Notes: generated by a model from the letters alone, not told the origin. Counted from the first letter of the stretch, positions 42,482 through 61,870 are shown. The stretch is DNA of 64,000 nt from Nitrospirota bacterium (GCA_030682135.1 JAUXQT010000005.1:1-64000); one strand, 5' to 3'. Numbers and translations are program-made.

Positions 42482-42506
42482 GTCGTGGCTCCCTCTCCCT
42501 CTTCGT

Positions 42507-43025
42507 CTACGCGGCAACCGTGGTGGTGGCTTCCTGCAAGTCTTCGTCCGACAACAGTTTGTCCATGTCCAGGAGGGCAATCAGTTTCTCGCCGGACTTC
42601 CCGATCCCGTTCAGGAAGCTGACGTCGACCTTCGCGCCGAATTGCGGCGGCGGCTGAATGTCTTTTTTGTCGATATTGAGGACGTCGGACACGGCGTCCA
42701 CGACCAGCCCCATGATCTTCTCCTTGACGACGACGACGACGATGACGGTGAACATCGTATACTCGATCGTCGGCATGCCGAACTTGGTGCGCAATTCGAC
42801 GATAGGGACGATCGTGCCGCGGAGGTTGAGCACGCCCTTGATGTGCGAGGGAGTATTGGGAATCTTGGTCACGGCGGTGTATCCCTTGATCTCCTGGACC
42901 CGAAGGATGTCGACACCATAGAGTTCTTCGCCCAACTGAAAGGTGAGAAACTGGCTGCCATCGGTGGTGAGCCCGATTTGCTGATTCAGTTCTTTCGTCG
43001 CGGTTTCAAGTGTGGCTGCGGCCAT
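42507..43025 (-). CDS. cheW: CheW adaptor, copy 1
   Basis: The 172-residue protein is a single CheW domain ([48 protein letters not shown]). It couples receptors to CheA. The ATG at 43025 has AAGGAGG at 5-nt spacing. Upstream in-frame starts lack one. A (GAC)5 microsatellite on the plus strand (42726-42740) encodes a run of five valines in the domain, a site of possible slippage. The globin-receptor gene begins 25 nt downstream, so the two are probably one operon under the sigma-28-like promoter at 43180. Confidence 0.93.
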
Positions 43026-43269: not shown

Positions 43270-45465
43270 TTACGCCGCCACGGGGGTCTCCCGGCGGGCG
43301 ATCTCCAGCAGGCCCCGGACGTCCAGGATAAACCCGACTGTGCCATCGCCCAGGATTGTGGCGCCTGCGACGCCGTCGACCTTGCGGAAGTTCTGCTCCA
43401 TGCTCTTGATCACGACCTGCTGCTGGCCCAGAATTTCGTCCACCATCACCGCGACCCGCTCCCCTTCTGTCTCCAGGATCAAGAGAATGGCTTTGGCCGG
43501 CTCCGTATATTCCGGCTGCAGGGAGAAGACCTCGTACATGCGCATCATGGGCAGATAGGTCCCGCGCACGTTGATGAGTTCACCCTTGCCGACCAAGGTT
43601 TTGATCGCTTCTGCCTTGGGTTGGATCGATTCCAGAATGGACAAGAGCGGCACGATATAGGTGTCACTGCCGACCCGCACCGTCATCCCTTCGATAATGG
43701 CCAGGGTCAGCGGAAGTTTCAGCGTAAAGATCGTGCCTTTGCCGAGCGCGGTCTTAATGCTGACCGTGCCGCCCAGGGCTTCGATATTCCGTTTGACCAC
43801 ATCCATGCCGACGCCGCGGCCCGACACGTCCGTGACTTTCTCCGCGGTGGAGAAACCAGGCTTGAAAATGAGCGGCCAGATTTGATCGTCTGTCAGCTTC
43901 TCCTGCTCGCTTACGAGTCCGGACTTGATGGCCTTGGCCAGAATCTTGTCCCGATTGAGTCCCCGTCCGTCGTCCTCGACGGTGATGCAGATGCTGCCGC
44001 CTTCGTGGAAGGCGTTCAAACGGATCGTGCCCAACTCGGGCTTGTCGTTGGCGAGGCGTTCATCCGGCGGCTCCAGTCCATGATCGGCTGAATTTCTCAC
44101 GAGGTGCGTGAGCGGATCGCCGATAGACTCGATGACGGTTTTATCCAGCTCGGTTTCCTCGCCGGAGAGGACGAGCTGAATCTTCTTCCCCGATTTCCCC
44201 GAGAGATCTCTGACCAGCCGCGGAAACCGGCTGAAGGCGCTGCCGATGGGCAACATGCGGATGCCCATGACCCGTTCCTGAATTTCCCGCGTGTTCCGTT
44301 CGAGCTGCGCAACCCGCTCCAGCAGCACCGCCAGTTGCGACATCTCGAAGCGCACACTCAAGTCGCTGAGCATCGACTGGGTAATGACCAATTCGCCGAC
44401 GAGGTTGATCAGTTTGTCGATCTTGGCGGTATCCACGCGGATCGACGCAGTGTCCGCGCCCTTTTTGGCATGGATCGCGCTCTCTTGCTGCTTCTGGAGC
44501 GCCTGGGAAATCTGTTGCGGTGTGGCGGCATGCTGCTCGATCAGGATCTCGCCGACCCGCTTCTGCTGCGATAACGCATGGTCCAGCGTCTCGCGCGACA
44601 CGACTCCGGTTTCGACCAATATTTCTCCCAGTGGTTTGGGCTCGCTGTCGCTCACGGCGAGAGGCGAGGGGCGAGGGGCTTGGGGGGGAGCAGTGAGCTC
44701 TTTCGCATCGCCTCTTGCCTCTCGCCCCTCGCCCTTTGCCTGTTCCTCAATCGTGAGCATGCCTTCGTCCTTGACGAAATCGAACACCGATTCCACAACG
44801 GATTTGTCTTTGGCGGTCTCTACGTCAAAGATCCAGGACAGGTAGCAGCATTCCGAGTCCAGCACGTCGAATGCCGGCAGGCTCGAGAGGTCCAAGGTGC
44901 GCGAGACGAGGGTGCCCAGATCTTCCAGTTCCTTGATCATCTGGATCGGATCGAGTCCGCGCTGGAACAGCCAGGACGGCGGCGTCCAGCGAATACGGAA
45001 ATGCCGGCCGCCGATGGCCTGGTTCACTGCGGACTGCGCGGACGCCGGCCCCTGGCCTGGTTCAGCCGGGGACGCCTGCCCGCCGGACGCGGAAGCCAAT
45101 TCCTCTTCCAGCTTGGCAATGGTCTCCGGGTCCGGAGCCGCACCGCCGCGGGCGGCTTCGAGGAGGGATGAAAGGCAATCGGTCGAGCGTAAGAGGACAT
45201 CCGCGATGGCCGGCGTGACGGAGAGTTGCCCGTTGCGCAGCCGATCCAGCAGCGTCTCCATTTTATGGGTAAACTGCCCGACGGCGGTAAAGCCGAACAT
45301 CCCGCTGTTGCCCTTGATGGAATGGGCTGCACGGAAGATGCGATTCAGCAGATCGAGGTCGTCGGGATGCTGCTCAAGGTTCAGCAGGCCCTCTTCCATC
45401 GTGGCGAGGTGATCGGCCGATTCCTCGAAAAATGCGTCCTGAAAATGTGACAGATCTGTGCTCAT
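43270..45465 (-). CDS. cheA: CheA histidine kinase, copy 1, with MshEN-like linker
   Basis: The 731-residue protein has an Hpt domain (H48 in RAAHSIKG) and a P2-like region (about 155-235). A low-complexity linker follows (241-272), then two tandem LGEILVxxGxxSxxxLxxAL..Q motifs (278-301 and 303-326). The dimerisation domain, HATPase (VRNSADHGLEPP, EDDGRGL, GRGVGMDVV) and a C-terminal CheW-like domain complete it. The tandem motifs resemble the c-di-GMP-binding MshEN domain. The linker is encoded by GCGAGAGGCGAGGGGC-type repeat DNA (44641-44750). It follows cheY by 79 nt with repeats and shares the operon started at 47385. Confidence 0.94.
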   Translation of the reverse strand: MSTDLSHFQDAFFEESADHLATMEEGLLNLEQHPDDLDLLNRIFRAAHSIKGNSGMFGFTAVGQFTHKMETLLDRLRNGQLSVTPAIADVLLRSTDCLSSLLEAARGGAAPDPETIAKLEEELASASGGQASPAEPGQGPASAQSAVNQAIGGRHFRIRWTPPSWLFQRGLDPIQMIKELEDLGTLVSRTLDLSSLPAFDVLDSECCYLSWIFDVETAKDKSVVESVFDFVKDEGMLTIEEQAKGEGREARGDAKELTAPPQAPRPSPLAVSDSEPKPLGEILVETGVVSRETLDHALSQQKRVGEILIEQHAATPQQISQALQKQQESAIHAKKGADTASIRVDTAKIDKLINLVGELVITQSMLSDLSVRFEMSQLAVLLERVAQLERNTREIQERVMGIRMLPIGSAFSRFPRLVRDLSGKSGKKIQLVLSGEETELDKTVIESIGDPLTHLVRNSADHGLEPPDERLANDKPELGTIRLNAFHEGGSICITVEDDGRGLNRDKILAKAIKSGLVSEQEKLTDDQIWPLIFKPGFSTAEKVTDVSGRGVGMDVVKRNIEALGGTVSIKTALGKGTIFTLKLPLTLAIIEGMTVRVGSDTYIVPLLSILESIQPKAEAIKTLVGKGELINVRGTYLPMMRMYEVFSLQPEYTEPAKAILLILETEGERVAVMVDEILGQQQVVIKSMEQNFRKVDGVAGATILGDGTVGFILDVRGLLEIARRETPVAA

Positions 45466-45544
45466 ATTTACATCCTATGACGAGTGATGTGACATGAGCG
45501 CGAGACTCTACTCATCACACATCACAGATCACCCTTCACTCTTG
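45466..45544. repeat. GTGATGTGACATGAG-type repeat in the cheY-cheA gap
   Basis: GTGATGTGACATGAGCG is followed by ACTCATCACACATCACAGATCACCCTTCAC, partly complementary. This is the family seen at 30130-30231 and 48390-48522. It sits inside a probable operon. Confidence 0.5.
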
Positions 45545-45916
45545 TTATGCCGGAAGAACTTTCTGGATCACTTTCAACATTTGTTCCGGATTGAACGGCT
45601 TGACGACCCAGCCTGTCGCGCCGGCGGCCTGCCCGGCCTTCTTCTTGTCGTCGGACGATTCGGTGGTCAACATCAGAATCGGCGTAAATTTCAGCGCCGC
45701 ATTTTTTCGAATCTCCTGGATCAGAGTGATGCCGTCCATCTCCGGCATATTCAAGTCTGTGACGACCAGGTCCGGCTTGGTCCCTCCGCCAATCTTGCCC
45801 ATCGCTTCTTTTCCGTTTCCGGCTTCGACGACCGTGAATCCGGCATTCGAAAGCGTGAAGGCCACCATCTGCCGCATGGTCGGCGAATCGTCGACGACGA
45901 GTACTGTCTTTCCCAT
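45545..45916 (-). CDS. cheY: CheY-type response regulator, copy 1
   Basis: The 123-residue single receiver has D9/D10, phosphoacceptor D54 in VVTDLNMPEMDG, Thr of LMLTTESSDDKKKAG and Lys of VVKPFNPEQ. It resembles the CheY type found with alternative CheA systems. AAGGAG stands 8 nt before ATG 45916. The gene lies between the short chemoreceptor and cheA, so CheA copy 1 is its likely phosphodonor. It may drive the motor or act as a phosphate sink for CheY copy 2. Confidence 0.92.
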   Translation of the reverse strand: MGKTVLVVDDSPTMRQMVAFTLSNAGFTVVEAGNGKEAMGKIGGGTKPDLVVTDLNMPEMDGITLIQEIRKNAALKFTPILMLTTESSDDKKKAGQAAGATGWVVKPFNPEQMLKVIQKVLPA

Positions 45917-45956
45917 ATCTGACACTCCTTGTTGCAAGGGGCCGGTTCACTGCCGA

Positions 45957-47078
45957 TTAAAACAACGTCACGCTGTCTTCCTCGCGAGCGGGCGCGGACG
46001 TGGGCGCCGGTCCATGTGTACCGTTCGTGCCGTTCATGGCCGATTCCATGACGTGGCGCTCATGATCCATGGTGTAGCTCTTTGCGAGTTTCTTGAGAAT
46101 GCTGCCATAGTCGAAGCCCTGCTCCGGCATCTGCCCCCCGGCTAACAGCCGGATCTGCGCTTCGATCTCCGACAAGGGTTCGATGACATGTTCCAGTTTC
46201 TGTCTGGTGATGTCTTGGAACTGCAGCGCCATGACGATCTGGGCGATGTCTCGCGTCAATTCATGGGCGCGGGCCTGTGACGCTTGCACACTGTCCTGAA
46301 GAATCGCCGTTCGGGCACACAGGGCTTTCGTCGTCGTATCCAACAAGTCTTTCATCGAGAGCGTCTTCGTCAGGTCCACCGATGACAGTTGTTTGATCTC
46401 CGACATGGCATGAGCGGTGCTGCGTTGGACCGCCTTTACTAAAAGATTGATGTTGCTGGCCGCCTGCCCGGATCGATTGGCCAATTTCGTCACCTCGTCT
46501 GCGACGACGGCGAACCCGCGGCCATGTTCGCCGGCCCGAGCCGCTTCAATCGCCGCATTCAAGGCCAGCAACCTGGTCTGATCGGCGATGAATTGAATTT
46601 CTCCCAGGATCCCGGCGATGGATTTGGTTTGCCGGGAAACTTCGTCCATGACATCGGAGACGGACATGCCGATCGTGGAAGCCGTCATCACATCCTGGAC
46701 AAACCCGGACAGCATGGTTTCGGACTGATCGAGGAGTCCTGTCGTGTCCTGCCCGTTTCCGACAAAGAGCGAGGCAGCTCCGGCGGCCTGTTCGCTGGCC
46801 CGTTGCGAGATGTCGCTAAAGCGAGTCGAAAGGCTCATGACCGCTTGTTCCGTCTCGGCAATCACGCTTTTCATTTGTCCGCTCAGGACCGGAATGAGCG
46901 GCATGAAACCTTCAGCAAATGCCTGCCAATGCCGGCAAGCCTGTTCCAGCCGTTGCTGCACGGCCTGGTCGGGTGCAGGGACGGATGCGGCGCTTATTGC
47001 ACCCCTCCTATATCCGTACCAACCTCCGAGGGTCAGTCCCACGATCAATCCAGTAGCGATCAAGACAAGAATGTCCAC
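45957..47078 (-). CDS. Short chemoreceptor with one N-terminal membrane helix
   Basis: The 373-residue protein has a single transmembrane helix (about 2-22), no sensor domain, and a methyl-accepting signalling domain with the tip [20 protein letters not shown]. The core motif [17 protein letters not shown] follows near residue 290. It ends DSVTLF, matching CheD (SDVTLF). Start is GTG 47078 with AAGGAG close upstream. It lies between a STAS gene and cheY. With no periplasmic part it may sense membrane state or a cytoplasmic partner, or act as a signalling scaffold. Confidence 0.85.
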
Positions 47079-47118
47079 GGGCTCCTTATAGTCGTCCTAA
47101 ATTTTTCCCCTGACCGGA

Positions 47119-47385
47119 TCAGACCCTGGCAGGTGTCAGACTCCCGCCGATTCGCTCCAACTTGCTTTTGACCTCGTCAGACGCGCCGGTCACACAGAGG
47201 CGTCCCGTCCGCAGCGCGGCGAGAATCAGTTGGAGCGCCGAGCTATCCACCTGTCCGACCAGCGAGAGATCGAGCGTCCCAGTTCCTCCACAGGACAACA
47301 ATTCCACCAAGCTGTCCTTGAATGATGCCACTTCAAAAATCGTGAGATCTCCGGTCGGCTTACATTCTCGTGTTTGAACATCCAT
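47119..47385 (-). CDS. STAS-domain protein, third copy
   Basis: The 88-residue STAS protein has the core GDLTIFEVASFKDSL and phosphosite-like QVDSSALQLIL. It is shorter and more divergent than the STAS proteins at 26926 and 28689, resembling the MlaB-like single STAS group. It heads an operon with the short chemoreceptor, cheY and cheA, 70-96 nt after a sigma-28-like promoter. The ATG at 47385 has no clear ribosome-binding site. It may be another target of the receiver-HATPase kinases. Confidence 0.75.
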   Translation of the reverse strand: MDVQTRECKPTGDLTIFEVASFKDSLVELLSCGGTGTLDLSLVGQVDSSALQLILAALRTGRLCVTGASDEVKSKLERIGGSLTPARV

Positions 47386-47454
47386 CACGTTGTGTGCATC
47401 CCGTTGTTGTGGTCGATTGACTGGTCTGAAGCCATTTGCACTTTGTCACTTGCC

Positions 47455-47481
47455 TTATCGGTGCATGAATCGAATACTTGA
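47455..47481 (-). promoter_or_regulatory. Sigma-28 (FliA)-like promoter, STAS-MCP-cheY-cheA operon
   Basis: Read on the minus strand: TCAA, 15 nt, ACCGATAA, differing from the sigma-28 consensus at only two positions in the two boxes. It lies 70 nt before the STAS ATG. This is one of the two best of the five sites. Confidence 0.75.
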
Positions 47482-47517
47482 GTCCTGCCAGGACGACCGC
47501 ATTCCTATCCTATTTTC

Positions 47518-48375
47518 TTACTGCGCCACCGACGATGGCGACAGCAAGGCGGAGGGAATGTCTCCGGAAATGCCTCTGTCACTTCGCATCGACTCATCCG
47601 AAGGGACGGCTGCCCTTTCCTGGACTATCGGCTGTCCTGCCGCGTCGACCGGTGGAGGCGTCCATTTCTTTTCCAGCACGACGATTTCGACCCGCCGATT
47701 CTTCGCTCGATTCTCCGCTGTGGTGTTGGCGACGACCGGTCTGGAATCGGCATACCCGACCGCCGACAGGTTCTGCATCGACACCCCATACAATTCTCCT
47801 AACGCCCGGACAACCATCACCGCTCGCATCGCGGAGAGTTCCCAATTCGAGGGAAACTGCGCCGACCGGATCGGCACATTGTCCGTATGGCCTTGCACCC
47901 TGACCTGGCGGTCGAGTTCGACCAACACCTCGGCAAGCGTCTGAAGAAATGGCAGGGCCTCGGGACGGAGCACCGCCGCCCCGCTCTCGAACAGGACTAA
48001 CTCCGGGAGGGAGAGGACGATGGTGCTCTCTCCCGGCTCGGTCACCAGAATGGGCTCGATTTTCGAAGAGGCCTGGAGCGCCTTCAGGGCCTGGCGCAGG
48101 CGCCGGACCGCCATATCCTTTGAGGGGATCACATTGGGCACGATGGTGGTCGGCTTGTTGGCGCCGACTTGAAACGGCGTGGCAGTGGCCGGTGGACTGA
48201 CGATGGGATTTAACGCCGCCTTAATGGATTCGCTGACCGTTCGGAACTTGCCCTCGTTCACCGAGGAGATCGAGTACATGACGACGAAAAATGCAAAGAG
48301 CAGCGTGATGAAGTCGGCATAGGACACCAGCCACCGCTCGTGATTTTCGTGTTCTTCGTGTTTCTTTTTTCCCAT
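47518..48375 (-). CDS. motB: Flagellar motor stator protein MotB
   Basis: The 285-residue protein has an N-terminal transmembrane helix with the proton-binding Asp D21 in VSYADFITLL, a plug/linker region and an OmpA-type peptidoglycan-binding domain (VRVQGHTDNVPI, NWELSAMRAVMV, RRVEIVV). It anchors the stator to the cell wall and pairs with MotA at 48530. The Asp and HTDN motif are intact. The ATG has no clear ribosome-binding site. The two genes are separated by 154 nt of repeat DNA. Confidence 0.93.
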   Translation of the reverse strand: MGKKKHEEHENHERWLVSYADFITLLFAFFVVMYSISSVNEGKFRTVSESIKAALNPIVSPPATATPFQVGANKPTTIVPNVIPSKDMAVRRLRQALKALQASSKIEPILVTEPGESTIVLSLPELVLFESGAAVLRPEALPFLQTLAEVLVELDRQVRVQGHTDNVPIRSAQFPSNWELSAMRAVMVVRALGELYGVSMQNLSAVGYADSRPVVANTTAENRAKNRRVEIVVLEKKWTPPPVDAAGQPIVQERAAVPSDESMRSDRGISGDIPSALLSPSSVAQ

Positions 48376-48529
48376 GATGGCGATGAAGCGTGATCAGTGA
48401 TGGGCGATGAGTGAACAGTGTTTAGAAACCCGTCATCGATTGAGGACCTCTTGTTCCAATCGGCTCAGTTCTCACAGGTCACTCCCCTCTTTACGCATCA
48501 CCCATCACCGATCACTGATCACTTCCCCA
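48376..48529. repeat. Inverted repeat between motA and motB
   Basis: GTGATCAGTGAT (48390-48401) is the exact complement of ATCACTGATCAC (48511-48522). Flanking units GGGCGATG and CATCACCCATCACC extend the similarity. It belongs to the same family as 30130-30231. It may form a long-range stem in the motAB transcript and set the MotA:MotB ratio. Confidence 0.7.
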
Positions 48530-49300
48530 TCACTTCTTGGCTTCCTTCGTCCGCTCCGACTCCGGGAGGAAACTCTCGAGTTTTTCCTGCAAGAGCCGTG
48601 GGTTCTCGCCTTGCGCCAACCCGACGAGTCCCATGATGATCATCATGCGCGAGCCCGCTTCTTCCTTGATCTTGAATTTCATCTTGCTGGCGAGGGGCAG
48701 AAAGAACAGATTGGCGGCGGCCACACCATACACCGTTGCCACAAACGCGACCGCGATACCGCCTCCGAGTTTGGAGGGGTCGGCCAGGTTTTCCATGACG
48801 TGGATCAACCCGAGCACCGCGCCGATGATGCCGACGGTCGGCGCATAACCGCCTGCTGCCTCCCAGACCTTCGCGGCGTTGATGCCCTCTTCTTCATGAT
48901 GTTCGACGTCGATCTCCAGGATCTCATGCACCACCTTGGGATCGGTCCCGTCCACGATCAACTGCACGCCTTTGCGGAAAAACGGATCGTGGATGTCCTT
49001 CAGCTTGCCTTCGAGCGCCAAGAGCCCTTGTTTGCGAGACACGTTCGCCAGATCGAGGATCGTCTTGATGGTGCCCTTATTGTCGTGCTTGGGATTCAGG
49101 ATGCCGAGACTGAGCATCGTGACCCCCTTCAGCACGACGGACAGGGGATTCTGCACACAGACCGCCCCGATGGTGCCGCCCATCACGATGATGAAAGCGG
49201 TGAGCTGCATGATGGAACTGAGGTGGCCGCCTTCGAGGGCCTGCCCCCCGACGATGGAGCCGAGTGCGATGACGATCCCGAGAATTGTCGCAATATCCAC
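48530..49300 (-). CDS. motA: Flagellar motor stator protein MotA
   Basis: The 256-residue protein has four transmembrane helices and the conserved MotA segments GGYAPTVGIIGAVLGLIHVM and VAFVATVYGVAAANLFFLPL. The cytoplasmic loop (about 60-150) carries HEEEGINAAK. It forms the proton or sodium channel with MotB. The GTG at 49300 has AAGGAA upstream. It is upstream of motB in the same direction. No sigma-28-like site was found for motA. Confidence 0.93.
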   Translation of the reverse strand: MDIATILGIVIALGSIVGGQALEGGHLSSIMQLTAFIIVMGGTIGAVCVQNPLSVVLKGVTMLSLGILNPKHDNKGTIKTILDLANVSRKQGLLALEGKLKDIHDPFFRKGVQLIVDGTDPKVVHEILEIDVEHHEEEGINAAKVWEAAGGYAPTVGIIGAVLGLIHVMENLADPSKLGGGIAVAFVATVYGVAAANLFFLPLASKMKFKIKEEAGSRMMIIMGLVGLAQGENPRLLQEKLESFLPESERTKEAKK

Positions 49301-49435
49301 GTCGCGCGATTCCTTCTAAGTCAGTGACTCGTTCGAACAGATTCGAAACCGGCACAGCACCCATGCTTTCGTACTATTGCCATTCAAAAGACGGCTCTGT
49401 TACCGTGCATTTCCACAGAAGATCGGGAGGTACCT

Positions 49436-49678
49436 GTGCACTCTCTGGACTGTCTGATACTCGATGCCAAACAAGCTATCCTTCATGAGCAGCATCGGCG
49501 CTTCCAGGAACTCCAGCGCGAGGGAAAGTGGGTCGAAGCCATGCAACAGTTTCAAACGACGATGTCCTGCGCCTCAGACCTCCTGAACGAATCGCTCGGG
49601 CTGTTAGACCGCGTCATCGAAACACAACGGCTGAAATCTCAGCGCCCTCCTTCTAGTGCCCCGCCCCCTGCCCCGTAG
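49436..49678 (+). CDS. Small coiled-coil hypothetical protein
   Basis: An 80-residue product starts at GTG after GGGAGG at 5-nt spacing. The sequence is helical and charged (EQHRRFQELQREGKWVEAM, then LLNESLGLLDRVIETQ), ending in a Pro-rich tail. It is the only plus-strand gene between 24 and 58 kb and overlaps the 3' end of cheW copy 2 by 26 nt in convergent arrangement. No family is recognised. A small flagellar or chemotaxis helper is possible. Confidence 0.55.
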   Translation: MHSLDCLILDAKQAILHEQHRRFQELQREGKWVEAMQQFQTTMSCASDLLNESLGLLDRVIETQRLKSQRPPSSAPPPAP

Positions 49679-50198
49679 CCGCATCTACTGCAGCCTGCTC
49701 ATTGGAAATCAGCAGGCGATTTAGATCCAAGACGATCAGCAGACGGTCGGCGATCCGTCCGATGCCCTGCGTGAATTCGGCGCCGGAGGAGCTGCCGAAC
49801 GCCGGCGGCGGTTCAATCGTGGATTTCGGAATGCGCAGCACCTCCACCACTTCATCCACGATCAACCCCACCATTCTCTGCCGCACTAAGACCACCATGA
49901 TGCGAGAATCATCCGACTTCTCGACCGAAGGGAGTCCGAACCGCCGCCGGAGATCCAGGACAGGAATGATCCGACCGCGCAGATTGATCACACCTTCGAC
50001 GTACGAAGGCGCCTTCGGCACCCGCGTGATTTCGACCATGCGATTGATCTCCTGGACGCTCAACACGTCCAACGCGAACTCCTCACGGCCGATCATGCAG
50101 GTCACCAGTTGACGGAGGTCGTCACCCGCCACGACTTCCCTGGTCAACACGCCTGAGCCCTGGCTCTGTTGAGCCTCAACCTTTTCTTCGACAATCAT
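49653..50198 (-). CDS. cheW: CheW adaptor, copy 2
   Basis: The 181-residue protein is a CheW domain (FALDVLSVQEINRM, GVINLRGRIIPVLDLRRRFG, GLIVDEVVEVLRI) with a short N-terminal extension. Start ATG 50198 has GAGGAG 6 nt upstream. The ATG at 50204 would abut that site. It is the last gene of the operon that runs cheR-cheY-cheZ-cheA-cheV-cheB-receptor, 26 nt after the c-haem receptor, so it probably couples that receptor to CheA copy 2. Confidence 0.92.
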   Translation of the reverse strand: MIVEEKVEAQQSQGSGVLTREVVAGDDLRQLVTCMIGREEFALDVLSVQEINRMVEITRVPKAPSYVEGVINLRGRIIPVLDLRRRFGLPSVEKSDDSRIMVVLVRQRMVGLIVDEVVEVLRIPKSTIEPPPAFGSSSGAEFTQGIGRIADRLLIVLDLNRLLISNEQAAVDAATGQGAGH

Positions 50199-50224
50199 CG
50201 GCATCTCCTCTCTATCGCGTGATG

Positions 50225-51910
50225 CTAGACCTTGAACGATCCCACAATACTCTGCAGCTCAACCGCCAACTGGCTGAGATCATGGCTCGCTTTCGCCGAT
50301 TCATTGGCGCCCGACGAGGACTCCTTCGTCACCTTCGCGACATTCTCAATGTCGTTGGCGATTTGCTGCGTGGCGACCGACTGTTCTTCCGAAGCCACTG
50401 CGATCTGCCGAATCATATCGGCGCTTTCGGAAACCATTTGCACGATCCGCGTGAGTGCTTCACCGGTCTTGTTGACCAGTTCGACGCCGCCGCTGACTTT
50501 CTGCGTCCCCTGTTGCATCGAATCGACCGCGCCGCGCGTATCATGTTGAATCTGCCGGATCATATCCCCGATTTCCTTGGTGGCTTTGGTCGTCCGTTCC
50601 GCCAGCTTGCGGACTTCGTCGGCGACGACGGCGAACCCACGCCCCTGTTCGCCCGCTCGCGCCGCCTCGATGGCCGCGTTCAAGGCCAGCAAATTGGTCT
50701 GGTCCGCGATATCTTCAATGACGCGGACGATTTCCCCGATTTGATCGGACGACTTTCCCAGCTCGGCAATGATCGTCGCCGAGTTGGAGACGGCTTCCGA
50801 CAGCTGTTGCATGCCGGAGATGGTGTCGGACACCACCGACCCGCCGTCCTTGGCGGTCTGGACGGTCTCTTGCGCCAGCGTCGCCGCTTTGCCCGAATTC
50901 TGGGCCACCTGGCTCACCGTCGCGTTCATTTCCTCTACCGCAGCGGCGGTCTGTGAGGCGCGGGAGGTCAGGGTATCGGTCCCCCTGGAAATTTCCTCCG
51001 CGGTCGCGGACAGTTCGACTGCAGCCGAGGCGACCTTGTCGGTCACATGGGCGACTTTGCCGATCATCTTCTGCAATTTATCGATGAACAGATTGAAGTA
51101 GCCTGCGAACTGGGCAATTTCATCCTTGCCTTCAGTCGGAACACGCTTCGTCAAATCACCTTCGCCCTGGGCAATGTCCTTGGTAATGTTCGCCATGTGA
51201 GCCAGCGGCTTGAGGACGATGCTGCTGAGCAGCCAATAGGTTGCGAGGACAAGGGTCAGGATGATCCCCACCAGCAAACCGGCGGTGTTCCATAACGACT
51301 TATCCGACGCGGCTTTGCCTTTGGTCATGTTCATCCCGACGCTCAGCACACCCAGGACGTCGCCGACCTGTTTATCGGCGTGGCAGCCGATGCAGGCTGA
51401 CGACGTGGCCTTGTCCACCGATGCCCGACGGAACATGAGCACCCCGTTGACCTCTTCAATGCGGGAAAAGCTCTCGCTCCCGCCCATGATGGCTCGCACC
51501 GCCTCTGTTTCAAACGCGTCCTTCGGCGAATTGGCTGGGTTGATCGGATTTTGGCTGATCATCCTGGCCGTAAAGAGCCCGCTCTTGTTGGCTTCTTCTC
51601 CCATTTCTCTCGTGGCGGTTGCCGGAAAGGGAATCGCATCGGGGTTGTTCGCATGGTCCTTGGCCACGACGATATCGCTCCCGGCCTTGCTCTTTTTTAT
51701 TTTCCCGACATAATTTTGCGCGATGTAAGACCGTGTGATCTGAATCTGGGTTTCAAGCAGTTTCCCGCGTTGCTCCAGCATCCCTGCCATTTTGTCCTGC
51801 TCCTGTTCATAAATGATGACCATCCCGATGAGTGCCATCACGGTGGCGATCGCCCCCATCGAAACCGCAAACTTCGGTCCGATATTCATGCCCTTCAAGA
51901 ACGTATTCAT
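50225..51910 (-). CDS. Chemoreceptor with periplasmic c-type haem sensor
   Basis: The 561-residue receptor has a transmembrane helix (about 13-34) and a periplasmic Tll0287/DUF3365-like domain with the c-haem motif CIGCH at 173-177. A second helix (about 213-233), a HAMP domain and the signalling domain (tip [20 protein letters not shown]) follow. Characteristic sensor segments are [25 protein letters not shown] and VLMFRRA. The covalent haem suggests redox or small-gas sensing in the periplasm. There is no CheR-tethering pentapeptide (end SIVGSFKV). ATG 51910 has AGGAGG upstream. It is flanked by cheB and cheW. Confidence 0.9.
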
Positions 51911-51964
51911 AGAGCCTCCTACCCTCTCCGTTGTGAGTGAACCGGTCCCATACACATTGACGCA

Positions 51965-53035
51965 CTACACCATATTGAGAATCTCTCCCACGACCCCCGA
52001 GAGCGGAATGACCTTATCCGCGCAGCCTGCCTCCACCACCGCTTTCGGCATGCCGTAGACGATACAGGTTTTTTCGTCCTGCGCGATGGTCCTGCCCTTG
52101 GCTGCCTTGATGGCCTTCATGCCTTCCAGTCCATCGTGCCCCATGCCGGTCAGGATGACGCCGATGCCCCGTTCTTCGTAGACCGTGGCGACCGACTGCA
52201 TCATGATGTCGGCGGAGGGGGCATGCAGATGATGTTCAAGATTCGGAGTCAGCGCGATGACCGTGCAGGTGATGGACTTGCGCTTGACCCGGCATTGGAC
52301 TCCTCCAGGCGCGATCAAGATCCGGCCAGGCTTGACTTCATCGCCCTCGGCGGCCTCTTTCACTTCCAAGCTACAGAGGGCATTCATGCGATCGGCAAAG
52401 GGTTTGGTGAAGGTCTTGGGCATATGCTGCACGATGACGATCCCCGCAGGGAAATCGGAGGGAAAGGCCGGAAGCACTTCGATCAACGCTTGAGGCCCCC
52501 CGGTCGAACAGCCGATGGCTACCACGCGACTGCCACGCGTGACACTGACCGAATGGGAGGTGAGCCCCATCGGCCGAGGCGTGACGACGGGACGAGGAGC
52601 CCCGTTCAGGTTGCGTGATCGTACTTTGCCGACCGCTTGGCTGGCGGCAACAATTTTGGCGATTAATTCATCCTGAATCTCGTGGATCTTCATGGCCACG
52701 CCATCGAGTTGCTTGGGAATGTAGTCGATGGCTCCCAACTCCAGCGCCTTCAAGGTGTCGCCGGCGCCTTCTGTCGTCAGCGAGCTGACCATCAGTACAG
52801 GGACGGGATGTTCGGCCATAATGCGTTTGAGGGCCTCGATGCCGTTCATCCCCGGCATTTCGACATCCATGGTCACGACATCCGGGTTCAATTGATGCAC
52901 GAGCTGCACGGCTTCTTCCCCGTTCCGCGCCAATCCGGCGATGGCAATGCGGGGATCCTTCGTCAACATCGACGAGAGGCTCTTCCGCATAAATGTCGAA
53001 TCGTCGACGATGAGGACTTGAATTGCTTTGACCAT
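51965..53035 (-). CDS. cheB: CheB protein-glutamate methylesterase, copy 2
   Basis: The 356-residue protein has a receiver (D57 in VTMDVEMPGMNG) and a methylesterase domain with Ser in GCSTGGPQAL, His in VQHMPKTF and Asp in GMGHDGLEGM. The last reads GMGHDG where copy 1 has GMGGDG. It sits between cheV and the c-haem receptor and probably acts on that receptor. The ribosome-binding site is weak. Confidence 0.95.
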   Translation of the reverse strand: MVKAIQVLIVDDSTFMRKSLSSMLTKDPRIAIAGLARNGEEAVQLVHQLNPDVVTMDVEMPGMNGIEALKRIMAEHPVPVLMVSSLTTEGAGDTLKALELGAIDYIPKQLDGVAMKIHEIQDELIAKIVAASQAVGKVRSRNLNGAPRPVVTPRPMGLTSHSVSVTRGSRVVAIGCSTGGPQALIEVLPAFPSDFPAGIVIVQHMPKTFTKPFADRMNALCSLEVKEAAEGDEVKPGRILIAPGGVQCRVKRKSITCTVIALTPNLEHHLHAPSADIMMQSVATVYEERGIGVILTGMGHDGLEGMKAIKAAKGRTIAQDEKTCIVYGMPKAVVEAGCADKVIPLSGVVGEILNMV

Positions 53036-53098
53036 ACCCGTCGATTCCCTATGTCCGACTGTCCAGATGCCGCTGAACCGGAGTGACCAGCCACCCGA

Positions 53099-54052
53099 TT
53101 ACATGATGTGGCGCATCAATTTTTCCGCAAACATTTTCGGGTCGAACTTCGTGACATAATCTGTGGCGCCCACTTGCCGTCCCTTGTCCTGATTGCAAGT
53201 TCCCGTCAACGAGGAATGCAACACCACGGGAAGATGCGCCAGTCTCGGGTCCGCTCGGATCTGCTTCGTCAAGGTGAACCCGTCCATGTCCGGCATTTCG
53301 ATATCGCTCAGGACCAGATGAATCCCCTGCACCTGCGTCACCCCTTCTTTGGACGCCGCTTCCGCCAGCTGCTGCAGATAATCCCAGGCCTCTTTCCCGG
53401 TGGTCGTTTGGATATAGGGCACGCCGAGTCGTTCTAAGGCCTTCCGGATCTGCGTCCTGGCAACACTGGAATCGTCCGCAAACAGCACACATTTGGATTG
53501 AAGTGCCGGCACCGCGTGCATCCCCGCATAGACTTCCTCGTCGGGACGAGGACAGATATCGCTGAGTGTTTTCTCCACATCGAGGATGAGGACCATGCGG
53601 CCGTTGTCCAGCATCGTGACGGCGGTCACCGCGCCTTTATTATTCTCACGGACCAGCGCCGGCGGGGTCTTGATCTGCGACCAGGAGGTGCGAATGATGC
53701 GATCGACAGCCGCGACATGAAAGGCCTGCAAGCTGCCGTTGTATTCAGTGATGATCAGTATGCCGTTCTCTTTCGAGTCTGGTTTAGTGAGGTCGACCTC
53801 GTGTTCGCCGAGACCGAGGCTGCGCTTGAGCGCAATGACCGGCACCATCGTCCCCCGGATATTGGCCATCCCGACGACGCGGCTGTCCGCTTCAGGGACA
53901 CGCGTCAGTTCCGGCAGCTTCATCACTTCGCGGACTTTGAAAACGTTGATCCCGAACAGCTCGTTGGTCCCCAGGTGGAACAGCAACAGTTCCATCTGAT
54001 TGGCGCCGGCGAGCCGGGTTCGAGCGTCGATTTCGTTCATCAATGTAGCCAT
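53099..54052 (-). CDS. cheV: CheV (CheW-receiver fusion)
   Basis: The 317-residue protein has an N-terminal CheW domain (LFHLGTNELFGINVFKVREV, GMANIRGTMVPVIALKRSL) and a C-terminal receiver (LFADDSSVARTQIRK, LVLSDIEMPDMDGFTL, TDYVTKFDP). CheV couples receptors to CheA and tunes adaptation by its phosphorylation state. ATG 54052 has AAGGAG at 6-nt spacing. Upstream in-frame codons are not used. It lies 35 nt after cheA copy 2. Confidence 0.94.
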   Translation of the reverse strand: MATLMNEIDARTRLAGANQMELLLFHLGTNELFGINVFKVREVMKLPELTRVPEADSRVVGMANIRGTMVPVIALKRSLGLGEHEVDLTKPDSKENGILIITEYNGSLQAFHVAAVDRIIRTSWSQIKTPPALVRENNKGAVTAVTMLDNGRMVLILDVEKTLSDICPRPDEEVYAGMHAVPALQSKCVLFADDSSVARTQIRKALERLGVPYIQTTTGKEAWDYLQQLAEAASKEGVTQVQGIHLVLSDIEMPDMDGFTLTKQIRADPRLAHLPVVLHSSLTGTCNQDKGRQVGATDYVTKFDPKMFAEKLMRHIM

Positions 54053-54087
54053 CGTCGACTCCTTCTCCTCAGTAACCCACGTCGAGA

Positions 54088-55986
54088 CTAGGCCGCGACG
54101 GCGTGGTGCCATGCATGGGCATTCTCGACCAATTCGGAAATATCCAGGATGAGGACGACTTTTCCATCGCCGGTGATCGTGGCGCCCGAGATGCCCTTGA
54201 TGCTATCCAGGTATTCCCAAATCGATTTGATCACGACTTCTTCCTGCGACCGGAGTTCATCGACGACGACGCCGATCCGCCGGTCGCCTAAGGCCGTCAC
54301 GACGACATTGAAGCGGTCACGGTCTGGATCGACGGGAATATCGAACTCTTGCGCGAGACGAAGCAACGGCAACACCCGATCGCGCAGGTGCAGCACTTCG
54401 CGTCCATTGATGGTCTTGATGTCCGACTTGGTAATCCGGACGGCCTCGATGACGGAACTGAGCGGAATGGCAAAGGTGGCACGTTCCACCTCGACCATCA
54501 GCGCTTGAATGATTGCAATGGTCAGCGGAAGCTTGATGGTGATGAGACTGCCCTTGCCCTGCTCGGACTCGATTTCCACGGTGCCGTTCATCTTGCGGAT
54601 GTTGGTCCGAACGACGTCCATTCCCACCCCGCGACCGGAGACATCGGTCACATGTTCAGCCGTGCTGAACCCCGGCAGAAAAATCAGGTTCACGACTTCG
54701 CGAGGCTCCATGGCGGACAATTCTGCCTCGCTGACCAATCCCTTGGCCAGCGCTTTGGCCTTCACTTTATCGATGGGGATGCCTTTCCCGTCGTCCTGAA
54801 TACGAATGACGATGCTGTTGCCTTCCTGGCTGGCGGCGATCCGCAAGAGGCCTTCAACCGGCTTGTTTTTCTCATGCCGCTCCGTCGGCATTTCAATGCC
54901 ATGGTCGATGGCATTTCTCACCAAGTGGACCAAGGGATCGCCGATTTCGTCGGCGACCGATTTATCGAGTTCCGTCTCTTCTCCGTGCGTCTCCAGGCGT
55001 ACTTGCTTCCCGAGTTTCTGCGACAGGTCTCGTACCAGGCGCGGCAATTTGGCGAGCACTTTCTTGATCGGGAGCATCCTGGTTTTCATGACGGCCAGTT
55101 GGAGGTCGGTCGTCACGAGATTCAACTGGGTGAGGGTTTCGCCCAGGGCACGGACTTGGGGGTCCGATTCATGGCTTTCGTCCAGGGCTCCACCGATCTT
55201 GATCAGGCGATTGCGCCCTAAGACGAGTTCACCGACGAGATTCATCACAGAATCCAGCCGGCGCGTCTCGACTCTGATCGTTTGGTCTTCGTCAGCCGAC
55301 TTCCCGGGCTTGTCCTGTTTGTGCAGCGCCTGGTCCAGTGCGCGCTCAGAGATCACCTTGGCCTGAATGAGCAGTTCTCCAAGGGGTTGCTTCGGCTCCG
55401 TCTGTTTCTGCTGCTCCGTCAAGGCATCGAATACCTGTTCCTTCGATGCCAGGCCATCATGCACGAGGATCTCGCCAATCGTCGGATGTGGTGAGGCTGG
55501 TGCCGCCGGATCCGGAATTGGAGTCGCAGCAGGTGATGGGGCTGAAGCGGCCATGGATGGCTTCGCTGCGGGCGTTGTCCCTTCAAATTTCCCGGCTAAG
55601 ACATCGTCGAGCTTCTTGGCCATCTCCTCTGTCGGTACATTGTTATCGGTGCCGGTGGCACGAATGTCATGCATGATGGCCTTGACCACATCGACGGCTT
55701 CTAAAATGACGTTAATGATCGAGGGAATGACCGCCATTTCACCCTGGCGCATTTTATTGAGAATGCTCTCGCCGCGATGCGTCACATCGACGAGATGGTT
55801 GAATCCCAGGAAGCCCGCTCCGCCTTTCATGCTATGCATGGCGCGGAAGATTTCATTCAAGAGGTCGGCATTATTCGGATCGGCTTCCAGGGCGAGAAAT
55901 CGCTGATCGAGGACGTCGATCATCTCCGTCGACTCCGTTAAAAAGTCGTTGAGAATTTCCTTCATCTCATCTGCTTCATCGCTCAT
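54088..55986 (-). CDS. cheA: CheA histidine kinase, copy 2, with MshEN-like linker
   Basis: The 632-residue protein has an Hpt domain (H51 in RAMHSMKGGAG), an Ala/Pro linker and tandem motifs TIGEILVHDGLASKEQ (169-193) and PLGELLIQAKVISERA (201-224). Dimerisation, HATPase (VRNAIDHGIEMP, QDDGKGI, GRGVGMDVV) and CheW-like domains follow. There is no recognisable P2 domain, and the tandem motifs occupy its place. They resemble MshEN c-di-GMP-binding motifs, although the usual first Arg is Thr or Pro. It is 8 nt after cheZ. It is probably the kinase for CheY copy 2 and the flagellar motor. Confidence 0.94.
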   Translation of the reverse strand: MSDEADEMKEILNDFLTESTEMIDVLDQRFLALEADPNNADLLNEIFRAMHSMKGGAGFLGFNHLVDVTHRGESILNKMRQGEMAVIPSIINVILEAVDVVKAIMHDIRATGTDNNVPTEEMAKKLDDVLAGKFEGTTPAAKPSMAASAPSPAATPIPDPAAPASPHPTIGEILVHDGLASKEQVFDALTEQQKQTEPKQPLGELLIQAKVISERALDQALHKQDKPGKSADEDQTIRVETRRLDSVMNLVGELVLGRNRLIKIGGALDESHESDPQVRALGETLTQLNLVTTDLQLAVMKTRMLPIKKVLAKLPRLVRDLSQKLGKQVRLETHGEETELDKSVADEIGDPLVHLVRNAIDHGIEMPTERHEKNKPVEGLLRIAASQEGNSIVIRIQDDGKGIPIDKVKAKALAKGLVSEAELSAMEPREVVNLIFLPGFSTAEHVTDVSGRGVGMDVVRTNIRKMNGTVEIESEQGKGSLITIKLPLTIAIIQALMVEVERATFAIPLSSVIEAVRITKSDIKTINGREVLHLRDRVLPLLRLAQEFDIPVDPDRDRFNVVVTALGDRRIGVVVDELRSQEEVVIKSIWEYLDSIKGISGATITGDGKVVLILDISELVENAHAWHHAVAA

Positions 55987-58439: not shown

Positions 58440-59438
58440 ATGGCTACCATCGTCTCTATCGCATCGGGTAAAGGAGGGGTCGGCAAAAGTGTGATCGCGG
58501 CCAATCTGGCGTTGCTGCTGGCCAAACAAGGCAAGCGAGTCGTGCTGGCCGACCTCGATATCGGCGGCGCAGACATGCACATTTTGTTCGGGCTCTTGAA
58601 TCCCCCGCTCACTTTGACGGATTTCCTTACCAGGAAGGTCGATCGGCTCGCGGACGTCGCACAGGCCCTCCCGGTCCACCCAGGCCTCACATTGATTCCT
58701 GGAACGGGCGACACACTCGCGACCGCGAACATGCCGCATGCCAAAAAGAAACGACTCATTCGTCATTTACGGGAGCTTGAGGCCGATGTCGTCGTCGTGG
58801 ATATCGGTGCGGGGACGAGTTATCACGCGCTGGATTTCTTTTTGATGGCGGATCACCATGTGACGGTCGCCACACCCGATCCCACCTCGGTGCTGGATCT
58901 CTACCGCTTCATCAAACTCGCCGCAATCCGGCGCGTCCTGTCTTCGTTCCTCTCACGGGATGCGATGGCTGACGCGCTGTCGGATCGCGATTTCTCCAGC
59001 GTTGAAGAGGTGCTCGAAGTCGCGGGTCAGACCAACGAAACCGGACGAGCCGTTGCTGAAGCGACCCTGCGGACATTTCACCCGGCCCTCATTCTCAATC
59101 GAGTGACCGGACGCTCCCGCGTCAACACTTCCGTGCTCAAGAAACTGCTCACCCAATATATCGGGGCTTCGCTGACCCTATTGGGAGAGATTCCCGACGA
59201 CCCAGCGATAGGACGAGCGGTTCGAGGATACCTGCCGGTCGTCGATTCCGAGCCGGCCTCTCCTGCCGCAGTGGCGCTGAAGACCACTGCCGACGCTTTG
59301 GCCATCCACATGGAGGAATCACGACGAGTACAAGAAGACCTTGACCAAGCCGCTCTTGCAGCCAGCCTCCTCGTCAGCTCGTATGATTACGGCGTGCACG
59401 CAATCGCTCAGCCTGTGTCTGTAGAATGTGGCGGATGA
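58440..59438 (+). CDS. FlhG/MinD-like ATPase
   Basis: The 332-residue protein has a deviant Walker A GKGGVGKS (10-17), the switch region DLDIGGADMHILFG and VVVDIGAGTSYHALDFF. It belongs to the ParA/MinD family and lies closest to FlhG/FleN, which sets flagellar number and place. It lacks the usual short N-terminal DQAxxLR motif of some FlhG proteins. It is divergent from the HTH-cheR operon. A weak sigma-28-like site, TTAT-15 nt-GCCGATTA, is at 58373-58399. Its end overlaps the PilZ gene by 65 nt in convergent orientation. Confidence 0.83.
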   Translation: MATIVSIASGKGGVGKSVIAANLALLLAKQGKRVVLADLDIGGADMHILFGLLNPPLTLTDFLTRKVDRLADVAQALPVHPGLTLIPGTGDTLATANMPHAKKKRLIRHLRELEADVVVVDIGAGTSYHALDFFLMADHHVTVATPDPTSVLDLYRFIKLAAIRRVLSSFLSRDAMADALSDRDFSSVEEVLEVAGQTNETGRAVAEATLRTFHPALILNRVTGRSRVNTSVLKKLLTQYIGASLTLLGEIPDDPAIGRAVRGYLPVVDSEPASPAAVALKTTADALAIHMEESRRVQEDLDQAALAASLLVSSYDYGVHAIAQPVSVECGG

Positions 59439-59970
59439 GGTGTTCCTGATCGGTGGGAGAGAGGGACACAAACTCCGTGGCGATTGAGTAGCCTAGGCCT
59501 TCTTTGAGGGGGATCGATCGGATCACCCGTGCCGTCGCATCGATCGGCGTAAATGGCGGCAGCACGACTTTGATGCTCAATTTGTCTTCGGCGGCAAAAC
59601 ACCGCGGGGAGACAAAGCCGATACCCCCACCGCTCAGATTGACATCGGCGATCTGGGCGATCGGCACTCCGCCAGGATGCATCTGTGCGAGCGTCTTCAC
59701 GATGACCTCCAGTAGCCAGTCGACTTTCATCATCCAGGGAAGCAACGGTGAATGCGCCAGTTGTTCTCCCTGCTGCGCAAAGAAGTCGGCTGCCGGCTTA
59801 CGCATGGCCTCCGCAATCGCCTGGTCGCTTGCGGGGGGCATCCCGGGTATGGAGGACTCCTCCTGCTCGGTGATGAGCCGATATTCCAACAGGACGCGAT
59901 CGTCGATTCGAAGCCATTCGCGCCGTTCGTCGGATCGTGGCATGTTGACTTGCACAGATGGTGGCATCAT
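59374..59970 (-). CDS. PilZ-domain protein (c-di-GMP receptor)
   Basis: The 198-residue protein has the two c-di-GMP-binding motifs: RxxxR in RREWLRIDDRVLLEY (about 16-30) and NLSGGGIGF (NxSxxG, about 110-118). A helical insert lies between them. It is probably a c-di-GMP effector acting on motility, next to a diguanylate cyclase gene. GAGGAT stands before the ATG. The 3' end overlaps the FlhG-like gene by 65 nt. The length is greater than a bare PilZ domain, with an N-terminal YcgR-like spacer possible. Confidence 0.82.
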   Translation of the reverse strand: MMPPSVQVNMPRSDERREWLRIDDRVLLEYRLITEQEESSIPGMPPASDQAIAEAMRKPAADFFAQQGEQLAHSPLLPWMMKVDWLLEVIVKTLAQMHPGGVPIAQIADVNLSGGGIGFVSPRCFAAEDKLSIKVVLPPFTPIDATARVIRSIPLKEGLGYSIATEFVSLSPTDQEHLIRHILQTQAERLRARRNHTS

Positions 59971-60352: not shown

Positions 60353-61870
60353 TCACGCGCACGCGCATTTGTCCGTCGTATGAATCACCACCCCGTTCCG
60401 CCCGCAGCCCTTGGCTTCGTAGAGTGCGGCATCGGCTGCGGCCATCCATTCGGGCACCGTACCGATTGTTGTGTCCGGGATCTGTGCTATACCCACGCTG
60501 ACCGTGATCTTCACCGACTCACCGTCCACGCCGAATACATGATGTTCGATCTGATCCCGCAGCCGTTCTGCGAGCACAGAGGCGCGGGTAAGATCGGTAT
60601 GGGGCAGCACAATCCCGAACTCTTCGCCTCCGTACCGGCCCACCGAATCCGTATCCCGCACGGCCTCCTGCATGACCGTCGCAATCTCCGTCAAGACCCG
60701 ATCGCCCCCCACATGCCCGAACAGATCGTTCACCTGCTTGAAGTGATCCACGTCGACTAAGATCAGACAGGCGGATGCACGGTAACGCATGCCGGCTTTG
60801 AGTTCTCGCGAGAGGACTGCTTCGAGTGCCCGCCGGTTCAGGAGTCCGGTTAAACCATCGCGCGAGGCCAATTCCTGCATCTGCTGATGGATGGCGGCAT
60901 TGTGAAGCGCCAACGCCAGCGACGTGCCGACCATGGACAACAATTGGAGTTCGGATTCCGAGAATGCGCCCTGCTGCCGCTCGACATACAAGAGCCCCTG
61001 GCTGTTCGGCGAGAAGGTCAGCGGGATAGTCATCTGTGCAGGCCGTTCGGTTTCCGATAAACCGCTCGACCACCGACGCACCTGTGCCTGAGCCTGAGAA
61101 ACCGGTGCGGCCTGCGCATTGAACCGGCTGAGGAGATGCGCGCGCACTCGTTGCTCTTGAGCTTCGTAAACCGCCGTTCGAGACCATGTCCAGACACGAT
61201 GGGGATCGGGCCGTCCGAGTCCGATGACATCCACCGGGACGAGCCCGGCAAGGCCGTTGAACAGGGACCGTGCAATGGACTCGCTATTCAAGGGGCCAGC
61301 CAACGCTTGTGTCAGATGATTGAGCAGCGACAGCTTGCTATTCCATTGCCGAAGGACATCCCGCTCACCCGCCAAGGAGGCATTCACTTGTGCGAGCTGT
61401 CCGGAGAGATCGCGCACGGATTGAAACGCCTGCCGATTGATGAGCCCCTTCTGCAGGGAGTCCAGCACTCGTGTTGTCGGTGCGGGAACGGTCAGATAGT
61501 CGAACGCGCCGTCCCGCAGGCATCGCGCCACCTGTTCGGCGCCGAGGTCCGGACCCATCAAGATCACACAGGCGTCGCTTTGCACAGCGGCCAATCGGTT
61601 CAACAGCGCAAAGGCCGGCTCAGGCGCAGCGGTCACTTCGCAGAAAATCGCATCGGGCGATGTGGATTCGATTGCAGCGAGAAGCGCCGCCGGTCCGGTG
61701 AACCGGCAGACACGATTCCCCGATGCTTCAAGACCTGTCCAGACTGCTTTGCGCTGAAAGGCGGCATGGCCCGCAACGAACAGACAGGGTCGTCGATCCT
61801 CTTCCTTGAGGGGCGTGATGGCGCGGCCAGGAATGAGATCGGCGTGGTCGGGACTTGCCTGCCTGCTCAT
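60353..61870 (-). CDS. Diguanylate cyclase with degenerate receiver and GAF
   Basis: The 505-residue protein has an N-terminal receiver-like domain (about 28-140), a GAF-like domain (about 175-325) and a C-terminal GGDEF domain with the active motif GGEEF at 414-418. The inhibitory RxxD site lies at 405-408. The receiver lacks the phosphoacceptor Asp (FCEVTAA) and the Lys (VPAP), so it is a pseudo-receiver. The enzyme should make c-di-GMP with product inhibition. The ATG overlaps the upstream small gene by 4 nt and has AAGGAG upstream. It belongs to the fliD-fliS operon. Confidence 0.88.
   Translation of the reverse strand: MSRQASPDHADLIPGRAITPLKEEDRRPCLFVAGHAAFQRKAVWTGLEASGNRVCRFTGPAALLAAIESTSPDAIFCEVTAAPEPAFALLNRLAAVQSDACVILMGPDLGAEQVARCLRDGAFDYLTVPAPTTRVLDSLQKGLINRQAFQSVRDLSGQLAQVNASLAGERDVLRQWNSKLSLLNHLTQALAGPLNSESIARSLFNGLAGLVPVDVIGLGRPDPHRVWTWSRTAVYEAQEQRVRAHLLSRFNAQAAPVSQAQAQVRRWSSGLSETERPAQMTIPLTFSPNSQGLLYVERQQGAFSESELQLLSMVGTSLALALHNAAIHQQMQELASRDGLTGLLNRRALEAVLSRELKAGMRYRASACLILVDVDHFKQVNDLFGHVGGDRVLTEIATVMQEAVRDTDSVGRYGGEEFGIVLPHTDLTRASVLAERLRDQIEHHVFGVDGESVKITVSVGIAQIPDTTIGTVPEWMAAADAALYEAKGCGRNGVVIHTTDKCACA

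Follow-up and report, generated by a model that had tools for sequence, protein, structure and literature searches.

An MshEN N-subdomain between the Hpt and dimerisation domains of two Nitrospira-type CheA kinases: a candidate c-di-GMP receptor within CheA

A 64,000-nucleotide stretch of DNA from a Nitrospirota bacterium (GCA_030682135.1 JAUXQT010000005.1:1-64000; hereafter the window) encodes two copies of the chemotaxis kinase CheA, CheA1 and CheA2, each with a pair of 24-residue motifs between its Hpt (P1) domain and its dimerisation (P3) domain. An earlier note made from the sequence alone had placed the pairs at residues 278-326 of CheA1 and 169-224 of CheA2, where they indeed lie, and had likened them to the paired motifs of MshEN, a domain that binds cyclic di-GMP (c-di-GMP). 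The resemblance proves to be true homology to the N-subdomain of MshEN, as judged from a family model (NF053729), from profile searches of the PDB and from the predicted structure of the CheA2 module. The best explanation, which we hold with moderate confidence, is that this subdomain, inserted in the Hpt-P3 tether, puts CheA activity directly under the control of the c-di-GMP level; such direct action, which the note had also proposed, is plausible.

Family membership was established by profile searches. NF053729 (NCBIfam, c-di-GMP_motif, MshE-related) is a 53-position model of the form 24+5+24 with a curated cut-off of 38 bits, which both CheAs exceed over the full model: CheA1 278-326 at 44.4 bits (E = 1.1e-11) and CheA2 170-224 at 48.2 bits (E = 6.9e-13). 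Across the whole genome it matches only these two proteins and two open reading frames (ORFs) of PilB-type size; a third CheA, on contig C70 and with several Hpt-like segments, gave no match in this genome-wide search. Both CheA pairs have Gly3, Leu/Ile/Val at positions 2, 17 and 21, and Gln24 in each of the two 24-residue motifs, and the N-subdomain of Vibrio cholerae MshE (MshEN/T2SSE_N, 5HTL) is likewise built of two such motifs with Gly3, hydrophobic residues at 2/6/7/17/21 and Gln24. When two module profiles (A2 / A3) were searched against the PDB, PilF was matched at E 2.9e-22 / 4.9e-26 and MshE (5htl) at 2.2e-9 / 3.2e-10. All matches with E <= 1e-3 were MshE, PilF or PilB, and beyond that value there was one more PilB chain (0.002) and nothing else below E 0.3. 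The best PDB sequence match is GSPII-C of Thermus thermophilus PilF (residues 302-360). The CheA1 and CheA2 modules are therefore members of the MshEN N-subdomain family, not chance likenesses.

The check named in the earlier note, a match to PF05157, turned out to be uninformative: neither CheA matches this model at E up to 10. In the PilB-type ORFs of the same genome PF05157 starts where NF053729 ends (contig C104, NF053729 13128-13283 and PF05157 13284-13541; contig C82, 12858-13013 and 13032-13277), so that it covers what follows the motif pair, namely the C-terminal subdomain. Because it models a different stretch, the missing match is no refutation, and PF05157 was rejected as a test of the module. 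To judge from the sequence, the CheA modules are the N-subdomain only, without the C-terminal subdomain. They differ in this from MshE and from PilF GSPII-C, which has three motifs and a C-terminal subdomain; in both of these the host is an ATPase, not CheA. Matches of the module to the Pfam family DUF4388 stayed under the cut-off of 25 bits (19 and 11.5 bits) and were not used.

The module is conserved to the same degree as P1, unlike the linker that precedes it. Among 26 CheA1 proteins the motifs are gap-free and the frequency of the top residue averages 0.79-0.80; the corresponding averages are 0.16 for the linker before the module, 0.63 for that after it and 0.74 for P1. It is also under purifying selection, with pN/pS (the ratio of nonsynonymous to synonymous change) of 0.07-0.32 in CheA1 pairs and 0.06-0.25 in CheA2 pairs, rough values because pS is high in most pairs. 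In a set of 79 distinct CheA modules, Gln24 of motif I is present in 98% of those with a compact spacer and 82% of those with a longer one, Gln24 of motif II in 100% of both, and Leu21 in 94-100%; selection of the set weakly favoured hydrophobic residues at 17 and 21 and Q/N/K/R/H at 24, not Leu or Gln as such, whereas Gly3 is at 100% by construction, being part of the search pattern. The ligand-contact residues of both motifs are conserved in the compact modules too.

AlphaFold2 monomer models of both modules were built from alignments of 13 sequences each, with modest overall scores (mean predicted local distance difference test, pLDDT, 70-72; predicted TM-score, pTM, 0.40-0.46). The CheA2 module is predicted to form a closed four-helix bundle like that of 5HTL, at 1.9-2.0 Å. 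The first 13 Foldseek matches of this model are N-domains of MshE, PilF GSPII-B and PilB, and it superposes on c-di-GMP-bound PilF GSPII-B/MshE at 1.5-2.0 Å over 57-59 residues (VIA-align, Z 9.0-9.6; best unrelated chain, Z 5.1). The CheA1 model has four helices (block-mean pLDDT 83-90, pTM 0.40) and MshE 5HTL as its top match, yet at 9.5 Å, compared with 1.9 Å for CheA2, in a low-pTM monomer model; VIA-align gave no chain with Z >= 2 among seven candidates, which is no proof of a new fold. Structure prediction, another check that the note had called for, bears out the likeness to MshE for CheA2, less clearly for the CheA1 monomer. In the latter the hairpins likely match MshE and their mutual placement differs. 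Because the pLDDT and pTM values are modest, the contrast between the two models is suggestive and not proof.

The doubts that the note itself had raised about binding, a first motif residue other than Arg in most copies and a short spacer in CheA1, both correspond to the residues present. Position 1 is Pro in motif I and Arg in motif II of CheA1, and Thr and Pro in those of CheA2, so that three of the four motifs lack Arg1, which MshE has. The first-position rule has been widened from Arg to Arg/Lys/Leu (PMC11731258), and CheA1 motif II alone among the four conforms to it. PilF GSPII-B, whose position-1 residues are Lys and Leu, binds c-di-GMP at 6 nM, and the c-di-GMP-binding GSPII-C has Pro there (P335; PMC11731258). 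These examples weaken the worry over the missing Arg, and by analogy with them Arg at the first position appears not to be required. The spacer is one residue in CheA1 and eight in CheA2, where MshE has five, making CheA1 four residues shorter than the NF053729 model and CheA2 three longer. Since by profile alignment PilF GSPII-C has a spacer of seven residues, its length is not strictly fixed; with this spacer before a motif that begins with Pro, GSPII-C is much like CheA2. For CheA1 it is the short spacer, rather than the missing Arg, that is the real issue for binding. The determinants restored in PilF GSPII-A were Gln24 in both motifs and Arg1 and Gly3 of motif II (PMC12002112); CheA1 carries all four and CheA2 three, Pro replacing Arg1. 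Isolated MshE 1-62, which has no C-subdomain, binds c-di-GMP at 0.35 µM (PMC5013675). On these residues we think it likely that at least one of CheA1 and CheA2 binds c-di-GMP. An exact-phrase search of a collection of open-access papers found no report of c-di-GMP binding by CheA.

How binding would act is suggested by the position of the module, which sits immediately ahead of the dimerisation helices, in the tether by which Hpt reaches the partner protomer's kinase domain. There c-di-GMP would be bound with one guanine per motif, and binding would order and compact the tether; a compacted tether would alter the access of Hpt to the P4 kinase domain, and the c-di-GMP level would thereby set CheA activity directly. 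That c-di-GMP binds, that binding changes Hpt access and in which direction it does so are what we infer, the changed access from CheA architecture.

The one-residue spacer invites a special form of this explanation, compatible with it. In compact CheAs the short link would block closure of the hairpins, and the c-di-GMP site would lie between protomers, one contributing motif I and its partner motif II (or the like motif), so that c-di-GMP would be a clamp beside P3. We regard this as possible but on the unlikely side. A compact spacer of one or two residues occurs in 51/79 of the CheA modules (exactly one residue in 48) and in none of eight ATPase modules, whose spacers are 5-7 residues (Fisher p = 5e-4, indicative only, since the sequences, being related, are no independent sample, few ATPase modules were available and compact modules served to build the profile). 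When 18 genomes were searched with the compact profile, which would have favoured any compact non-CheA module as well, each of the 18 full-length matches lacking a long spacer was a CheA, and the eight ATPases found there had longer spacers. The retention of contact residues in both motifs of compact modules, the two-fold symmetry shared by c-di-GMP and the CheA dimer, and the possibility that a one-residue link is too short for the canonical bundle point the same way, as does the departure of the CheA1 model from MshE. That departure is seen in a single low-pTM monomer model from 13 sequences, and a monomer that closes with one helix trimmed would be an alternative. A still more doubtful proposal is that CheA1 and its compact relatives use a 24+1+24 form of the pair that is specific to CheA and builds c-di-GMP sites spanning the homodimer beside P3, through which c-di-GMP would act directly on the signalling dimer and clamp it. 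A third class of CheA, present in some relatives (L060, L061 and L062), carries this motif pair separated by a spacer of 17-18 residues.

Several observations weigh against c-di-GMP control of these kinases. In one reconstructed PilF GSPII-A construct binding was lost when position 1 of motif II was Ser (PMC12002112), and a perfect consensus gave no binding in full-length GSPII-A, so the motif alone is no proof; CheA2 has Thr and Pro at its two first positions, and for the CheA1 model no superposition on MshE was obtained. Two relatives that are metagenome-assembled genomes (MAGs) have a CheA without the module, L063 (CheA1-type) and L033 (CheA2-type), which implies that CheA can work without it; in each case the second CheA encoded by that genome retains the module (L032 and L044, respectively). 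Such losses, the absence of Arg from position 1 of three of the four motifs and the existence of non-binding MshEN relatives, XpsE and PilF GSPII-A (PMC12002112, PMC5013675), would fit a degenerate MshEN that binds no nucleotide and is kept as a folded spacer or for docking of proteins. This we consider unlikely, given that Gln24, which hydrogen-bonds the ligand ribose-phosphate, is kept at 82-100% in both motifs together with the Leu contact positions, whereas the non-binder XpsE lost such residues (G11V, R38G, G40L, L54H, L58C, Q61V; PMC5013675). Binding of another cyclic dinucleotide, or of a protein partner such as the PilZ protein encoded nearby, in place of c-di-GMP is quite improbable: MshEN does bind cGAMP weakly (PMC5013675), the Xanthomonas PilB N-terminal domain, of the same family, was solved with a PilZ protein (7lkm/7lko) and a PilZ gene lies in the same cluster, but MshEN owes its specificity to the backbone amides from Gly3 onwards, Gly3 is retained in the modules, genes of GGDEF and HD-GYP type are present in the genome, and nothing found here points to another ligand.

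The favoured reading, c-di-GMP control through an MshEN subdomain in the tether, concerns an architecture that is not new, since MshEN-CheA fusions were named among MshEN partners by Wang et al. 2016, with reference to their Supplementary Table 4 and Fig. 3b (PMC5013675), and the module together with P3 is present in 85/198 sampled genomes of the phylum of a Desulfamplus locus (L089). The 2016 fusions have the same domain combination; the main text only lists them and does not discuss spacing, position in the Hpt-P3 tether or a compact form. In a scan of contigs the motif pair was found in Nitrospira/Nitrospirales loci (L064-L073), in a Holophagaceae locus (L083), in L089 and in L101; most CheAs returned by that scan were proteobacterial, and the pair was not found in those. 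The new element seems to be the compact CheA1 spacing, one residue instead of five, found here only in CheA.

The features are collected in the table. Hpt, P3, HATPase and CheW-like domains follow in order in both CheAs, all above Pfam gathering cut-offs. Between Hpt and the module of CheA1 lies a conserved P2-like stretch (residues ~156-246; 44728-45000, minus strand; 0.63) that no Pfam model matches. CheA2 has no such stretch, and its module therefore occupies the place where P2 would be.

Table. The two CheA genes, their modules and the c-di-GMP-related genes of the cluster (window coordinates)
Feature	Position	Strand	Basis
CheA1, 731 aa: Hpt(P1) - P2-like stretch - MshEN_N module - P3 - P4 - P5	43270..45465	-	Pfam Hpt, H-kinase_dim, HATPase_c, CheW
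CheA1 motif I, residues 278-301, PLGEILVETGVVSRETLDHALSQQ	44563..44634	-	NF053729 match 278-326, 44.4 bits
CheA1 spacer, one residue (K302)	44560..44562	-	sequence
CheA1 motif II, residues 303-326, RVGEILIEQHAATPQQISQALQKQ, Arg at position 1	44488..44559	-	NF053729
CheA1 P3 dimerisation domain, directly after module	44263..44448	-	PF02895
CheA2, 632 aa: Hpt(P1) - MshEN_N module - P3 - P4 - P5, no P2-like stretch	54088..55986	-	Pfam
CheA2 motif I, residues 169-192, TIGEILVHDGLASKEQVFDALTEQ	55411..55482	-	NF053729 match 170-224, 48.2 bits
CheA2 spacer, eight residues (193-200)	55387..55410	-	sequence
CheA2 motif II, residues 201-224, PLGELLIQAKVISERALDQALHKQ	55315..55386	-	NF053729; model on c-di-GMP-bound MshE/PilF
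CheA2 P3 dimerisation domain, directly after module	55081..55284	-	PF02895
PilZ-domain protein (c-di-GMP receptor family), same cluster	59374..59970	-	PF07238, 41 bits
GGDEF protein (diguanylate cyclase family), same cluster	60353..61870	-	PF00990, 145 bits

The genome (G000) is Nitrospira-type, 3.75 Mb in size, and CheA1 has its nearest named relatives in Nitrospira MAGs. The chemotaxis cluster, on the minus strand, comprises CheR, CheY, CheZ, CheA2, CheW-REC (CheV-type), CheB, a chemoreceptor, MotA/MotB-type proteins and CheA1, and at its upstream end are the PilZ and GGDEF genes that the note had reported near the CheAs. Domain searches of the whole genome found six GGDEF and 11 HD_5 (HD-GYP-type) matches and none to EAL; by this inventory the organism can synthesise c-di-GMP and probably degrades it. 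Beside the che genes is a globin-coupled sensor, a 981-aa chemoreceptor (39635-42580, minus strand) with an N-terminal globin, PAS domains, HAMP_2 and an MCP signalling domain. A 373-aa MCP-signal protein (45957-47078, minus strand), with a hydrophobic stretch at its N-terminus, adjoins CheA1; a CheZ match in its C-terminal part is sub-threshold (25.4 bits, cut-off 30.7).

The action of c-di-GMP on swimming is usually placed at the motor, through YcgR/PilZ brakes, or ascribed to adaptors that touch chemotaxis. If the proposed working is true, a c-di-GMP receptor inside CheA would place a switch between sessile and motile life at the kinase that sets motor switching, and its reach would be a large share of Desulfamplus-phylum genomes together with the Nitrospira relatives.

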